Shown one piece after another: positions 34,984 to 40,694 of a stretch of DNA of 64,000 nucleotides. The stretch covers positions 1,588,248-1,652,247 of the forward strand of contig NC_020813.1 in NCBI RefSeq assembly GCF_000348725.1, written 5' to 3'. A model generated the notes under the pieces. It saw only the letters and a program-made list of their open reading frames with translations. It had not been told where the DNA came from and made no database searches. A program made the position numbers and the translations under genes. Source of the DNA: Pseudobdellovibrio exovorus JSS (GTDB taxonomy: Bacteria; Bdellovibrionota; Bdellovibrionia; Bdellovibrionales; Bdellovibrionaceae). How positions within the stretch are numbered: position 1 is the stretch's first letter; each line of letters starts with the position of its first letter.

Positions 34984-35621
34984 TTTACACTTTTCAGAAT
35001 AAAAATAATAGAAGTCGGAAGCCCTTCCCCTCTGGGTTCGATCAACTGGCAAAGCCTCAAATCAGATTTTTCAAATTCACTGATCCATGAACTTAACGTT
35101 CTACCATACCACGGCATGACATCTTTAAAATCCACAGACATTGTTTTAAAATCTTCAATAAACCAACCGTCTTGATACGTTGGCAACTTAAAGCACGGAT
35201 GGATCGTCTGAATAATAATTTTCCCTTCAGGCAAAAGAAATTCACTGACACTTTTTAAGGTGGAACTTATATCTTCATCTAAAAGCGAAAAGTTAAATAC
35301 AACGCCTTCGACTAAAGCATTCGGACGCCAGTTCTTACTTTTTAAATCATCGTATGAAACTGCTTCGAATAAATGCCCTGAACGTTCCTGAGCTTTTTTA
35401 ATAAGCCCTTCTGAACCGTCAATCCCCGTGTATTGGATGTCTTCAGGTAAAGACCTTGCTAACCAACCTTCACCACACCCCACATCAAGAACTGACTTTA
35501 ATTTATTGTCGCTGATGGCTTGGATAATGGCAGGATTTGTGATCTTACGGCTATCGATACCCATAGAATCAATAACCTGAACCCACTGCTCGACATTTTC
35601 GTTCCAGAAGTTGTTTTTCAT
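34980..35621 (-). CDS. class I SAM-dependent methyltransferase
   Basis: The product has 213 residues with Rossmann motif I (VLDVGCGEGWLARSL), motif II (YTGIDGS) and a later FNFSLLDE segment. The C-terminus (GLPTSIIFILK) is typical of small-molecule or UbiE/ubiquinone-like methyltransferases; the substrate is unknown. It is first in a two-gene unit with the PhyH dioxygenase. Confidence 0.85.
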   Translation of the reverse strand: MKNNFWNENVEQWVQVIDSMGIDSRKITNPAIIQAISDNKLKSVLDVGCGEGWLARSLPEDIQYTGIDGSEGLIKKAQERSGHLFEAVSYDDLKSKNWRPNALVEGVVFNFSLLDEDISSTLKSVSEFLLPEGKIIIQTIHPCFKLPTYQDGWFIEDFKTMSVDFKDVMPWYGRTLSSWISEFEKSDLRLCQLIEPRGEGLPTSIIFILKSVK

Positions 35622-35744
35622 ATATTAAGGTTAGTTCGATTTTTAACTTGGTGACAATGAAAAACAGACGATTTCAAGTCGCAATTGCCGCGACTTCAGG
35701 TCTACACGTTGATTAATTCAGACGATCTGTTTAAAATTCAACAA

Positions 35745-36293
35745 ATGAAATTATACCAAGCGCTTCTGCTAAGTCTTTTTTCTATATCATTGATCTCTTG
35801 TAAAAAGAAAGAAAGTCCCATGGAATACACACCCGTCCTATTTAAAAATCTTCCATTCGGAAGTTTGTCAAAAAGTGACTGTTCGCCTTTGGTTACTCAC
35901 GAGGACTCTAAAGCCTTTCTTATTCGTACTCCAGAGCAAATCAATCTTTCAGGTAACGAAAAACTTATTTTGCCGATTTGTGGTTATTATAATTTAGATA
36001 CGGTTTCAGTTCTTGAACAAAAAACATTTATTCACTTTAGAAAAACCCAAGTGAAAGAGGCTTTTCAGACACTTGAAGTGGTTCCCGAACGTGAACACGA
36101 AATTGAGGCACCAAGCCGCAACAAGCCTGTTGATTTAACTCTTTACAAAGGCCAGATGTCGACACTTTACTTTTATTTTGATCTTCAAAATTACTTACCG
36201 AACGACTTGCTGGATGGTGAATATGAAGTGTATGTTACCTGTGGAGAAAATGTTTCGAATACTTCTGTGGTTCAAGTCATCAGGACTAATTGA
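35745..36293 (+). CDS. putative lipoprotein
   Basis: The product has 182 residues. A short signal sequence ends in SLISC (Cys about 19) followed by a charged linker and a beta-rich mature domain (YNLDTVSVLEQKTFIHF; YKGQMSTLYFYFDLQ). ATG at 35745 gives a normal lipoprotein signal. It borders the AT-rich accessory island. No family recognised. Confidence 0.62.
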   Translation: MKLYQALLLSLFSISLISCKKKESPMEYTPVLFKNLPFGSLSKSDCSPLVTHEDSKAFLIRTPEQINLSGNEKLILPICGYYNLDTVSVLEQKTFIHFRKTQVKEAFQTLEVVPEREHEIEAPSRNKPVDLTLYKGQMSTLYFYFDLQNYLPNDLLDGEYEVYVTCGENVSNTSVVQVIRTN

Positions 36294-36394
36294 GACTTCT
36301 ACAAGAGTAACCATTACCAACATGGCTACTCTTTCTGTTTAATTAAACTCGCATATGAACTAAGCCGGGCGCGCAACACACTTTACAGATATGG

Positions 36395-36860
36395 TCAATA
36401 CACAGCGAAACGATCTTTCTTATACTTACCGTCTACGTATTTCTTGAATATTTCGTCCGAAGAGTCACCATCTATAGCTATAGAAATGTTCTCTAATATT
36501 CCTCGAATAATCAGTGCAGAGGGTCTATCGCGAATCCTGAACATAAACTTTGCAATGCCGCATGTGAATCTAATAAGCAATTCTCATAAATTTTATATAG
36601 AGTGTATTCTTTTTCAGTAAACTCAACTAGAAAGGCCGCAAAGCTCTTTCTAAGAGCTCGTGTAGCATGAAAAACTATGTCCAATACTGATCAAGCATAA
36701 ATTTAAACTCAGCATGATCGCAGCTTATGTTAGCGCTAATTATTTTTTTAATATTTTGTTTCAACTCATCTACACTTCTTAGGCTTTCACCATCCCAAAA
36801 CCGCGAGTTTAAAGTATCGATAACTTCTTTTGAGTACCTATTTTTAGTATCCATGATCAA
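36395..36860 (-). pseudogene. broken hypothetical gene with two apparent frameshifts
   Basis: Three minus-strand segments in three different frames read as one helical protein. Residues from 36854 run MDTKNRYSKEVIDTLNSRFW to a stop near 36675. The next frame is open from about 36690 (VFHATRALRKSFAAFLVEF) to a stop near 36520. The third frame is open from about 36535 (SALIIRGILENISIAIDG) to 36395. Each breaks off where the next continues, which suggests a decayed gene, or indels in the sequence. The original function is unknown. Confidence 0.42.
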
Positions 36861-36885
36861 CTAAATATTTTCTTTTAAAAATCCT

Positions 36886-37206
36886 TTACCGACGTACTTT
36901 TTTTAACGCACGAAGATAAATGATACGTTTTCTTAATGCAGTTTCGTTGCTCACTGTTTCACTAGGCACCGCGCCACCTTTTTCAATACCATATTGTTCA
37001 AATTGCTCTTTAACAGATTCATTGAAAATATTTTTATCGCAATCTGTACTCTCAATCTCTTCCGCAATAAGCATATCTATATTCTGCTCAAGCCAATTTG
37101 CCTGCAATAACTCACTCACTCTAGCCATATTTTTTTCTTCTCTTAAATCCTCTATTGAATTTTCTAAAAGTGAAATATACCTATCAATATCAATTAAAAC
37201 TATCAT
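36886..37206 (-). CDS. small acidic helical hypothetical protein
   Basis: The product has 106 residues, strongly charged and helical (RYISLLENSIEDLREEKNMA; LRKRIIYLRALKKVRR). It lies 60 bp downstream of the membrane protein gene on the same strand in the AT-rich island. No family recognised; a coiled-coil partner role is only a guess. Confidence 0.45.
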   Translation of the reverse strand: MIVLIDIDRYISLLENSIEDLREEKNMARVSELLQANWLEQNIDMLIAEEIESTDCDKNIFNESVKEQFEQYGIEKGGAVPSETVSNETALRKRIIYLRALKKVRR

Positions 37207-37266
37207 CCTTAATCCTTGCTAAAAAGCAGTTTAAATTGGTCCAAACATGTATTCGTAGCCAGTCCT

Positions 37267-37875
37267 TCACAGAGCAGGAATGTGCAAATTATTCTTATGT
37301 GCTACACTTTCCAAATATTGATATATCAATTCATATTCCTTTTTACTTTGGAGCTGTGCAAATCTAGACTCTAATTGTTTCACTTCTACCTCTTCCATGT
37401 ATGGAATACATGCTGTTAGCGCTTGTCGATACTTGGCAATCAAATTATTTGTCCTAATTTTTTGTGTAAATTGAAAAATTAAAAACGCAGACATAATGTA
37501 CATTATAAGTATCGATCGTTCAGCCGAAGCTTTTCGCGATTCTATACTGCCATTAAAGTTTGCTTTGCTATTTTTGTGAAATACTTTAAAAATCTTTATT
37601 TGCATTACAAAAATAACTGCCAACAACACACCTATAACTAAATTATAAAAACTAAGAAGTATCTCTTCACGAAACCCTTTCGCGGCATTTTTATAGATTT
37701 CGTCAATAACAGTTGAATTAAACACACTGATAATCCACAAAATCGCATCTCCTGCGACTGTAACAAATGCACGCCCATAATAATCCCAAATAGCATTTGT
37801 AATTAATCCAACAACAACTACACCTAATAATTTAAAAAACCAGTTATTCAAGTATTTTTCAAAAAAAAGACGCAT
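37267..37875 (-). CDS. island membrane protein, possible retron accessory component
   Basis: The product has 202 residues with three to four predicted membrane helices: about 9-31 (NWFFKLLGVVVVGLITNAIW), 44-56 (weak), 76-98 (LLSFYNLVIGVLLAVIFVMQ) and 127-145. A cytosolic helical tail of about 55 residues follows (EVKQLESRFAQLQSKKEYEL). GGGGGAG precedes ATG at 37875. It is 173 bp downstream of the retron RT gene on the same strand. Membrane effectors accompany some retrons (for example the two-helix protein of Retron-Eco6/Ec48), but a link here is only inferred. Confidence 0.6.
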   Translation of the reverse strand: MRLFFEKYLNNWFFKLLGVVVVGLITNAIWDYYGRAFVTVAGDAILWIISVFNSTVIDEIYKNAAKGFREEILLSFYNLVIGVLLAVIFVMQIKIFKVFHKNSKANFNGSIESRKASAERSILIMYIMSAFLIFQFTQKIRTNNLIAKYRQALTACIPYMEEVEVKQLESRFAQLQSKKEYELIYQYLESVAHKNNLHIPAL

Positions 37876-38048
37876 AACTACTCCCCCCTTTAGCCGCCAC
37901 AAATGTTTAAACTAATTGTTATTTTGCTTTATCTCTTAAATCAAGTTAAAGTAAAAGCCCTGATATTAAGATAGAAAAAAATTCAGATGTTAGTATACAA
38001 GAGTTATTTAAGATTAACCTGCCTGACAACTCTATACTTTAATAATTT

Positions 38049-39863
38049 TTACTCTTGCGATGTCTTTGTAGATAATATCGTTTGGTAATCTTTTATAATT
38101 TCATCGACCTTATCAAATATTTCTGAAAATTTAGAGAAATCAATTTTTTTACAACGCTTTTTCACTAACATTGACAAAACTGCTTTGCCGAAATGATTGA
38201 CCGCATCTTTTTCATCCAAGTCACCTGATTTAAATGTTTTCCCTTTAAATTTCATATTTAAAGTTTTATCAGTAAAATAGTCTTCAATAACCGTCTCAAC
38301 CGCATCGGTAGGATTTTTTGGAATTTCTAAAATGTACAAATTATGAAAAATATGAAATACTCCATTTGTCATACTTCTTTTTTTCTTGGCTGCCTTCTTA
38401 ACTTCTAACCCAGCACTGTCATTATCTACGACTATAATAACGGGATGAAGCGGAACGCCATTAAACTTACACTCCTTTTTCATACGATTGTATGAAGAAA
38501 TTAGATACTTCATACCCCCCGTACCATCGACTAACTTCATCATTTCCCCATCAAGATTATTTCCTGCAAAAAATCTTACATTCAATTTTCCACTGCTAAC
38601 CATGCCCGAATACTTAGTTTCTAGTGCCAAAAGAGCGCATTTCAGGTAAACAGGGTCTGTCTTCCCCTCACAATAAATAAGCGGCATTTGAGGCGCAAAG
38701 AAATTTTTATAGAACAAGAAGCGACCATAGATATTCTTAATACCATCTAGAGACACTTGATGGCTGTTATCAGCATACTGTGTCGACCTGTCCAGGTTGG
38801 AATCACTCTTATATTTCCCATTGTGTCTACTGTGTCTATATCCTCCCTGATCTGCATAAATATTTTTAAATTTCTTTATTTGGTAAATATAGTTAAGTCG
38901 TCCCTCAAGTTGTTGCATACTTAAATTTTTATTGCGATTGGTTTTTAAGTAGCAGCTTCCAGTCGTAAAAATATTTAAACACATAGAGCGCGTATCTCTA
39001 TAGTATTCTGCTGGTACATTCACATGACAGTTAACAACAAGACCCGTAACCATTTGACGAGATGTTCGATAATGCATTCTGACCTTAGACTTTTTAATTT
39101 TAAATCCACTTTTCTCAATAACTTCTGTTAAAGCATCTCCTATCACCCATTGATCTTGCTCCAAAATTGCAATCTCTGTTGGGAATTTAGGACCATTAAA
39201 TGAAAAGGTCAAATCATCTGCATAACGAGTATAAAAGCAACCTCTTCTATTAGCTAACCTCAGTAAGTGCCTATCAAGAAGACGCCCTATAAGATTAGAC
39301 ATTACAGGTGAACAAGGGCTTCCCTGTGGAAGCTTGTCCATATGGCAAATAATATTCGCTATATGGGTTGCTACAACGGGATCTAATTTAAATTGTTTAT
39401 CTTTAATGAAAAATCCGCGAACTCTTCCAAAGTTAATAGATCCAAAAAAATCTTCTAAATCTAAATTAAGTACATATTTTTTTTTAAGATGTTGTTCTGC
39501 ATTTGTTGCGATTGATAAATTTTGCTTGAATGCATGAGAAACACTTTTATTAGAATATGCTCGAGTTGCTCTTTCTTTTTTTGGATTTTGTAACTTCTTT
39601 TTATGTTTTAGCTGATAATTTGGCTCTAAAATTGATGACAAAATAGAGGCAAGCCTTTTCTGTACTACCTTTAGTGATTCATCTGGACTTGATATAATCC
39701 TAAAACCGCCACCTTTTTTTGGTATTTCGAAGGTTCTATATAAACTTTTCCTAGATATTTTGTATAAAAGAATATTTAGGTTGCTCTCGTTTGTTCCAAG
39801 TAACTTTGCAAGATCTTGAAGGGATTTTGCTTGCTGTAATTCTTTTAAATAATTAACCATCAT
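38049..39863 (-). CDS. retron reverse transcriptase with C-terminal TOPRIM domain (Retron-Eco2/Ec67-like)
   Basis: The product has 604 residues counted from ATG 39863. The RT core shows all retron signatures in order: region X NAEQH (121-125, the NAxxH motif), catalytic Asp in LNLDLEDFF (about 135), QGSP (180-183), active site YADD (214-217) and region Y VTG (272-274). From about 390 a TOPRIM domain follows, with Glu399 (YCEGKTD) and the DxD Asp480/Asp482 (VVDNDSAG), as in the RT-TOPRIM protein of Retron-Eco2. The RT would copy the adjacent msd RNA into msDNA; the TOPRIM part is the likely nuclease effector of an anti-phage toxin-type response. An in-frame ATG at 39899 lies inside the msd and is less likely to be the start. 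Confidence 0.93.
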   Translation of the reverse strand: MMVNYLKELQQAKSLQDLAKLLGTNESNLNILLYKISRKSLYRTFEIPKKGGGFRIISSPDESLKVVQKRLASILSSILEPNYQLKHKKKLQNPKKERATRAYSNKSVSHAFKQNLSIATNAEQHLKKKYVLNLDLEDFFGSINFGRVRGFFIKDKQFKLDPVVATHIANIICHMDKLPQGSPCSPVMSNLIGRLLDRHLLRLANRRGCFYTRYADDLTFSFNGPKFPTEIAILEQDQWVIGDALTEVIEKSGFKIKKSKVRMHYRTSRQMVTGLVVNCHVNVPAEYYRDTRSMCLNIFTTGSCYLKTNRNKNLSMQQLEGRLNYIYQIKKFKNIYADQGGYRHSRHNGKYKSDSNLDRSTQYADNSHQVSLDGIKNIYGRFLFYKNFFAPQMPLIYCEGKTDPVYLKCALLALETKYSGMVSSGKLNVRFFAGNNLDGEMMKLVDGTGGMKYLISSYNRMKKECKFNGVPLHPVIIVVDNDSAGLEVKKAAKKKRSMTNGVFHIFHNLYILEIPKNPTDAVETVIEDYFTDKTLNMKFKGKTFKSGDLDEKDAVNHFGKAVLSMLVKKRCKKIDFSKFSEIFDKVDEIIKDYQTILSTKTSQE

Positions 39864-39871
39864 AAAAAATA

Positions 39872-39885
39872 TTGGTCTATGGGTA
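39872..39885 (-). repeat. retron a2 repeat arm
   Basis: TACCCATAGACCAA on the minus strand is a perfect 14-nt complement of the a1 arm; it closes the 3' end of the retron RNA. Confidence 0.85.
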
Positions 39886-40001
39886 CTCTTTACCAACATA
39901 CACTAAAGCCAAGCGAAAGAGACTATACGGTTAGACACTCGTAGAGTAAATAAGACACTTGATGACAATTCATCAAATGCTGCGATCCGCAGCACAAAGT
40001 C

Positions 40002-40015
40002 TACCCATAGACCAA
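40002..40015 (-). repeat. retron a1 repeat arm
   Basis: TTGGTCTATGGGTA on the minus strand is the 5' arm, 116 bp from a2. The next base is a G, where the branch point of known retrons lies. Confidence 0.85.
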
Positions 40016-40019
40016 ACTA

Positions 40020-40048
40020 ATTTTAAAAAATAAAAACAAAATAAACAA
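40020..40048 (-). promoter_or_regulatory. sigma70-like promoter of the retron RNA
   Basis: On the minus strand, -35 TTGTTT (40048-40043) and -10 TAAAAT (40025-40020) are separated by exactly 17 bp. Transcription would start about 40014-40013, at the first bases of a1. The T-rich spacer suits the AT-rich island. Confidence 0.65.
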
Positions 40049-40434
40049 ATACTAATTTCGACTCCAGACCTCAGTCTCGCAATCTAATACATAGAGAAAA
40101 GCTATGTAAAAAATATCTCAAAAATGTTCGTGAAAGCTCACTAATATTTAAACCTTCTCACTTTCAAGATATTCTAATTAGAATCATTTTGTACGAAATA
40201 ACTCAATTGGATATCCCATACAAAAGAAGCTGTCTCATCATTATTCGTATTATTTTTAATTTTCCGGATTAAATACAATGTAAATGCTTTTGTTGTATCG
40301 ATCCTAGTCTTAGTACAACCTACACCGAAATGGTGCCAATTTCTTCCGTTTGCATCTCGCACCATCTAAGGAACACTTTGAATGCCAGCAAGATTAAAAA
40401 ACTCCATTTTCTTCATCTTAGATCAAGGCTTAAA
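40049..40434. other. AT-rich stretch without a convincing gene
   Basis: A 63-residue minus-strand frame (40174-40365, MVRDANGRNWHHFGVGCTKT...) and short plus-strand frames exist but none has a ribosome site, family motif or clear codon bias. It is probably decayed island DNA between the retron and the recombinase-like fragment. Confidence 0.4.
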
Positions 40435-40533
40435 AATTATGGACTCGCCAAACAAGCTTCTACGCTGTTTAAACCCATGAATGCAGAAGAAAAGCGTGAA
40501 TTAGTGAATTTGGTACTATCGAACCCGAAGTGA
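40435..40533 (+). pseudogene. C-terminal fragment resembling a site-specific serine recombinase
   Basis: About 33 codons read YGLAKQASTLFKPMNAEEKRELVNLVLSNPK, then stop. The pattern of a helix ending in EEKRELV.LVLSN is typical of the extreme C-terminus of large serine recombinases. No catalytic domain is present upstream, so this would be a remnant. The match rests on one short segment only. Confidence 0.4.
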
Positions 40534-40597
40534 AGAGAACCTATCTAACGTGAAGTGAAGAGAACCTATCTATCTAACGTGAAGTGAAGAGAACCTA
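40527..40597. repeat. three imperfect tandem repeats next to tRNA-Asp
   Basis: The unit GAAGTGAAGAGAACCTATCT is repeated at 40527, 40552 and 40581. Copy 1 is 25 bp, copy 2 is 29 bp with a duplicated ATCT, and copy 3 is cut after 17 bp. It begins inside the recombinase-like fragment and ends 20 bp before the tRNA 3' end. Confidence 0.85.
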
Positions 40598-40617
40598 ATG
40601 TTACTGATTTAGAAAAA

Positions 40618-40694
40618 TGGCGGAGTGAACGGGACTCGAACCCGCGGCCTTCCGCGTGACAGGCGGACGTTATAACCAACTTAACTACCACTCC
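40618..40694 (-). tRNA. tRNA-Asp (anticodon GTC)
   Basis: The 77-nt gene, read on the minus strand, starts GGAGTGG, has the anticodon loop CCTGTCACG with anticodon GTC, a T-arm GCGGGTTCGAACCCGT and an acceptor 3' strand TCACTCC with encoded GCCA. The acceptor pairs over 7 bp with one G-U. The 3' end faces the accessory island, as at many tRNA integration sites. Confidence 0.96.

Follow-up and report, generated by a model that had tools for sequence, protein, structure and literature searches.

The locus and the question it raises

In the genome of Pseudobdellovibrio exovorus JSS, a perfect inverted repeat enclosing two hairpins lies directly in front of a reverse transcriptase (RT) gene, raising the question whether the locus encodes a retron and, if so, of which type and how well preserved. 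All coordinates below refer to the window, the whole 64-kb stretch of DNA that was analysed; the locus lies on its minus strand, and the RNA is read from high to low positions. The analysis showed that the locus is a real, complete retron of the Ec67/Eco2 type (type I-C), a divergent member of a well-known family. A sequence-only reading had proposed that the RT gene is preceded by the msr-msd RNA of a retron, complete with a1/a2 arms and branch G, and this proposal is now strongly backed by family models, a blind covariance-model match and covariation. What identifies the type is the Toprim half of the protein, unremarked in that reading. The first observation was thus confirmed in part, and its interpretation is likewise supported in part, as detailed below for the msd. 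Very probably, the parts work together as one complete type I-C retron, with an RNA running from 40015 to 39872, an msd of ~80 nt copied from G40001, and an msDNA that restrains RT-Toprim until a phage releases the RNase.

The RT gene encodes an RT-Toprim fusion of the Ec67/Eco2 type

The gene at 38049..39863 (minus strand) is an uninterrupted frame of 604 amino acids encoding an RT-Toprim fusion, and its start codon lies 8 nt past a2. The protein matches the NCBIfam model NF038237 ('retron_Ec67_fus') with 655.8 bits, against a curated cut-off of 450, along the entire profile (1-572 of 572), and the PADLOC model RT-Toprim_I-C with 653.7 bits (E 5.6e-197). Its best sequence matches in the PDB are retron Ec67 protein chains (E 5.6e-102). 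With an AlphaFold2 model (mean pLDDT 81.9), the top five PDB matches found by Foldseek are all retron Eco2, aligned over the whole length (E 7e-45 to 9e-43). Pfam detected the RT part alone, leaving the Toprim half unseen.

The C-terminal Toprim RNase part begins at approximately residue 386 (38049..38708, minus strand). Its active site (E, DxD, second E, K) is present as E399, D403, D480, D482, E527 and K560; the residues E399, D403, D480, E527 and K560 are found in 128 of 128 relatives, and the position of D482 is D in 124. The Toprim catalytic residues are identical to those of Eco2. In the RT part we noticed the motifs N121-A122-xx-H125 (NAxxH), Y214-D217 (YADD) and V272-G274 (VTG), together with the fingers aromatic F45 (F46 in Eco2). 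YADD and VTG are kept in all 128 RTs, with D216, D217 and T273 invariant, and F45 is F in 126. The residue at the position of Eco2 S513, V525 in the window, is variable across the family.

The closest known system is retron Eco2 (Ec67; type I-C; PDB 9i2f, 9lm3, 9s1f), in which an RT-Toprim fusion is likewise the sole protein. Identity between the two proteins is only about 35-37%, and the window protein has an extra insert around residues 82-106. Retron Eco1 (Ec86, type II-A) has an RT of the same fold, but its effector is a separate NDT without Toprim and its msr has more than one stem-loop; the window RT fits type I-C far better (E 6e-197, vs 3e-57 for RT_II-A). An Eco1-like type II retron was rejected, as no NDT effector gene was found beside the RT with PADLOC, Pfam and NCBIfam and PADLOC ranks I-C first.

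The a1/a2 stem, the branch G and one stem-loop are conserved in the family

The a1 arm (40002..40015, minus strand) and the a2 arm (39872..39885, minus strand) are, as had been claimed, perfectly complementary over 14 bp; on the minus strand they read TTGGTCTATGGGTA (40015-40002) and TACCCATAGACCAA (39885-39872). No other perfect inverted repeat of 14 bp whose arms are 80-160 nt apart exists in the window, and the mean number in first-order Markov sequences of equal size is 0.04. Both hairpins noted earlier, at 39959-39976 and 39978-39994, are present with 7 perfect pairs each. The minimum-free-energy check also came out in favour of a structured RNA: a 152-nt stretch around the repeat and hairpins folds at -53.1 kcal/mol, compared with -34.5 +/- 3.6 for 200 shuffles (z -5.2).

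Scanning genome contigs and viral contigs with the single protein revealed no close relative, but a scan with an RT-Toprim protein alignment succeeded, yielding 437 relatives in reference genomes, 80 of which were kept, and 68 in viral contigs. Nearly all of 127 loci carry directly upstream an inverted repeat that ends in A and has GA as the next two bases, the arms being 95-127 nt apart; in nearly all relatives examined a2 lies 2-56 nt before the RT-Toprim gene. Searches of Rfam, at gathering as well as relaxed thresholds, gave no match for the window RNA. From 78 homologous RNAs, the window excluded, we built a covariance model that recovered the window RNA blindly (61.7 bits, E 2.1e-13) as the single match in the 2.66-Mb host genome (2,657,893 bases, one contig; E 0.001).

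In an alignment of 100 loci, standard pairs fill 98.4% of pair cells; the share is lower in shuffled versions (79.6%) and in slid ones (28-42%), and 469 pair cells are altered on both sides, compared with 124 in shuffles. Compensatory changes occur in 11 of 11 modelled pairs of the a1/a2 stem and in 6 of 7 of hairpin 1; hairpin 2, by contrast, has no conserved pairs, so that covariation upholds the repeat and only one of the two hairpins first described. Hairpin 1 (39978..39994, minus strand; TGCTGCG-GAT-CGCAGCA, 39994-39978) occupies the position of the msr stem-loop (RSL) of Eco2 and consists of 7 bp plus a G-U pair closed by a GAU triloop. The first base past a1 is indeed G, and this nucleotide (40001, minus strand), equivalent to rG15 of Eco2, is the predicted branch guanosine, the site of 2'-5' priming; 99 of 100 loci have G in the aligned column.

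In Eco2 the branch is rG15, the stem-loop spans G20-U42 with an AAU loop at 30-32, and a second AAU at 49-51 precedes the msd, which starts at G52 and is 67 nt long (PMC12405507). When the branch G is taken as G15, this numbering recurs in several relatives, L103 among them, and gives an msd of 67-68 nt in L103, L106 and L099, matching the published Eco2 length. Eco2 and the window share the a1/a2 stem, a G directly past a1, a single conserved msr stem-loop with a triloop, the stop motif AAU/G and GAG/U before a2. Across the 100 loci, these are the conserved parts of Ec67-type RNAs, namely the a1/a2 stem, one stem-loop, AAU/G and GAG/U, the msd fold being unconserved.

A private hairpin spans the predicted msr/msd border

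Hairpin 2 (39959..39976, minus strand; TTGATGA-ATTG-TCATCAA, 39976-39959) is a perfect 7-bp hairpin that is private to the window. As a conserved msr stem it was rejected, since each of its pairs is kept in just 1-57% of the 100 sequences. The equivalent of Eco2 G52 aligns to 39966, within the loop of hairpin 2, so the point where reverse transcription is predicted to stop falls inside the hairpin. For the same reason the msd template is probably about 80 nt long, judging from the alignment, and the 70 nt first given for it did not hold. The predicted template (39887..39966, minus strand; family range 58-90 nt) is placed by homology between the conserved AAU/G, the stop in Eco2, and the conserved GAG/U before a2. 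Apart from its longer predicted msd (~80 vs 67 nt), the window differs from Eco2 in this hairpin over the border.

The earlier proposal that reverse transcription stops past hairpin 2, giving an msDNA of ~70-72 nt from an otherwise identical retron with two true msr stem-loops, would be in keeping with the extra msr stem of Eco1 and with the 7 perfect pairs of hairpin 2, whose fold is more stable than that of shuffled versions of its stretch (z -2.2). The nearest relative, an RT-Toprim retron in Colwellia sp. ALOHA_DT_126 (L016), also has a 6-bp hairpin across the same border, with 5 pairs over it in its fold. On the other side, the conserved UGA...AAU/G motif, the stop in Eco2, aligns within the hairpin 2 loop, the pairs are unconserved, and merely 24 of 100 relatives form at least 4 pairs over the border, so we consider two true stem-loops unlikely. 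Still more doubtful is the idea that the border hairpin of this lineage replaces the usual single-stranded stop region, so that reverse transcription in this type I-C retron follows another stop rule, ending at the stem or past it, and that this rule was adjusted in concert with the loss of the H281 contact. That hairpin 2 acts between msr and msd to terminate or attenuate transcription is hardly credible: a terminator scan does mark 39980-39955, with its T-rich tail, but finds 2 terminator-like sites where 1.3 are expected in shuffles, the stem of hairpin 2 has just 3 GC pairs, and the retron family requires read-through to the msd and the RT gene.

The divergence of the locus raises the further question whether RNA and gene are merely still readable in a decaying retron that has lost reverse transcription or defence. 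The score of 61.7 bits is the second lowest among 100 family members. In Eco2, H281 stacks on the msr loop; the window has L296 at this position, the sole L among 128 RTs. In a maximum-likelihood tree of the 128 RTs, the window pairs with Colwellia L016 (SH-aLRT 98) and its branch is long (1.11); the top identity is 44%. These three points would fit decay, but the reading frame is intact, every catalytic residue is retained, and neither the 14-bp a1/a2 stem nor the RSL contains a mismatch, which makes decay of this extent very improbable. Near GAG, the GC consensus before UAAGAG is changed to GG in the window; such altered bases and the L at the H281 position may reflect lineage tuning or mild decay. 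Along with the low RNA score and the lack of a strong promoter, they are the points that speak against the main reading.

Colwellia L016 and the window share 43-44% identity: the RNA layout is the same and the inner length is 114 nt, vs 116 nt in the window, while the msd sequence differs and the border hairpin has another sequence and register. The window retron is a distant member of the family on which the stop of reverse transcription in type I-C retrons can be tested, and its main points of note are the predator host and the private hairpin over the border of msr and msd.

The msd fold is of ordinary strength

An 8-bp msd stem flush with a2 had also been described. In the sequence it exists just as CTT(A)TTTAC/GTAAAGAG, needing a bulged A and one G-U pair, and it is missing from the minimum-energy folds of both RNA and DNA. 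The 3' tail of the msd finds its best pairing at another site, which 30 of 100 shuffles equal or exceed. A basal msd stem formed with the a2-proximal tail was rejected, as just 2 of 100 loci reach the 5% level of shuffles. The weak pairing of the apical msd, contrasted earlier with classical msd hairpins, is real but ordinary for the family (DNA fold z -0.49, median -0.58), and we rejected an unusually weak fold as a special feature of the window.

Proposed mechanism

Reverse transcription in Eco2 begins at the branch G, and the msDNA keeps RT-Toprim as an inactive trimer; its Toprim domain is an RNase, and the phage nuclease DenB is implicated as trigger (PMC12405507). In the window, the RNA, its two conserved helices, the position of the branch G and an RT-Toprim that is intact and retains the catalytic residues are all in place. 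By analogy with Eco2, msDNA synthesis, a trimer, RNase activity, a trigger and defence are probable here. The minus-strand RNA, from a1 (40015) to a2 (39872), would fold via the a1/a2 stem, and the RT domain would prime on the 2'-OH of G40001 and copy ~80 nt of msd. Reverse transcription would halt near 39966, leaving a branched RNA-DNA hybrid (msDNA) that would keep RT-Toprim in an inactive assembly, as the trimer does in Eco2. An infecting phage that cuts or removes the msDNA would free the Toprim domain, and the freed domain would degrade RNA, so that the infection ends but the cell is sacrificed.

Genomic setting and host

P. exovorus JSS is an obligate epibiotic predator that feeds on its prey from outside. 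The retron lies in an AT-rich segment (35500-40600; G+C 0.31-0.38 over 35.5-40.5 kb, vs 0.42 for the window) bordered by a tRNA-Asp gene (40618..40694, minus strand). Six congeners retain the tRNA-Asp and the neighbouring orn gene, and similarity ends at the 3' end of the tRNA, beyond which the content differs in every congener compared, marking a variable insertion site. The AT-rich content and the end of similarity at this point suggest that the retron segment was acquired at tRNA-Asp. No integrase was seen at the segment, and the 3' end of tRNA-Asp (at least 12 nt) is not repeated elsewhere in the window, so that no attachment-site pair was found. The RT-Toprim protein is absent from 13 other genomes of the genus. 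Of 369 genomes from the phylum scanned with the RNA model under strict filters, none gave a further case, and the window thus adds a divergent complete type I-C retron as the sole detection. Among the papers searched, none connects retrons to P. exovorus. The locus suggests that epibiotic predators such as this one carry acquired phage defence.

Around the retron we noted several further elements. Three 28-nt direct repeats, CTATCTAACGTGAAGTGAAGAGAACCTA, spaced by 25 and 29, lie at 40516-40597, immediately past the tRNA-Asp 3' end and before the retron. No strong promoter was found for the latter. Downstream of the RT gene are two small ORFs on the minus strand (37902-37267 and 37206-36886), one with predicted membrane-like stretches; neither has a family match in PADLOC, Pfam or NCBIfam, and 65 genomes from the host's family yielded no match to the larger (37267-37902). 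In one congener (G008), an unrelated protein of 389 amino acids (L182:5868-7037) occupies this tRNA-Asp site.

In another family of the phylum (genome G142, L007:1340-3201), we observed a divergent RT with a fused C-terminal part that resembles Toprim (EGYTD...DRD). This protein scores 306 bits, under the NF038237 cut-off of 450, and its locus went undetected by the RNA covariance model. An imperfect 15-bp inverted repeat (1340-1354 / 1466-1480) is present there with a GCGCG-TTT-CGCGT hairpin, and L007 may represent a separate sub-branch of RT-Toprim retrons.
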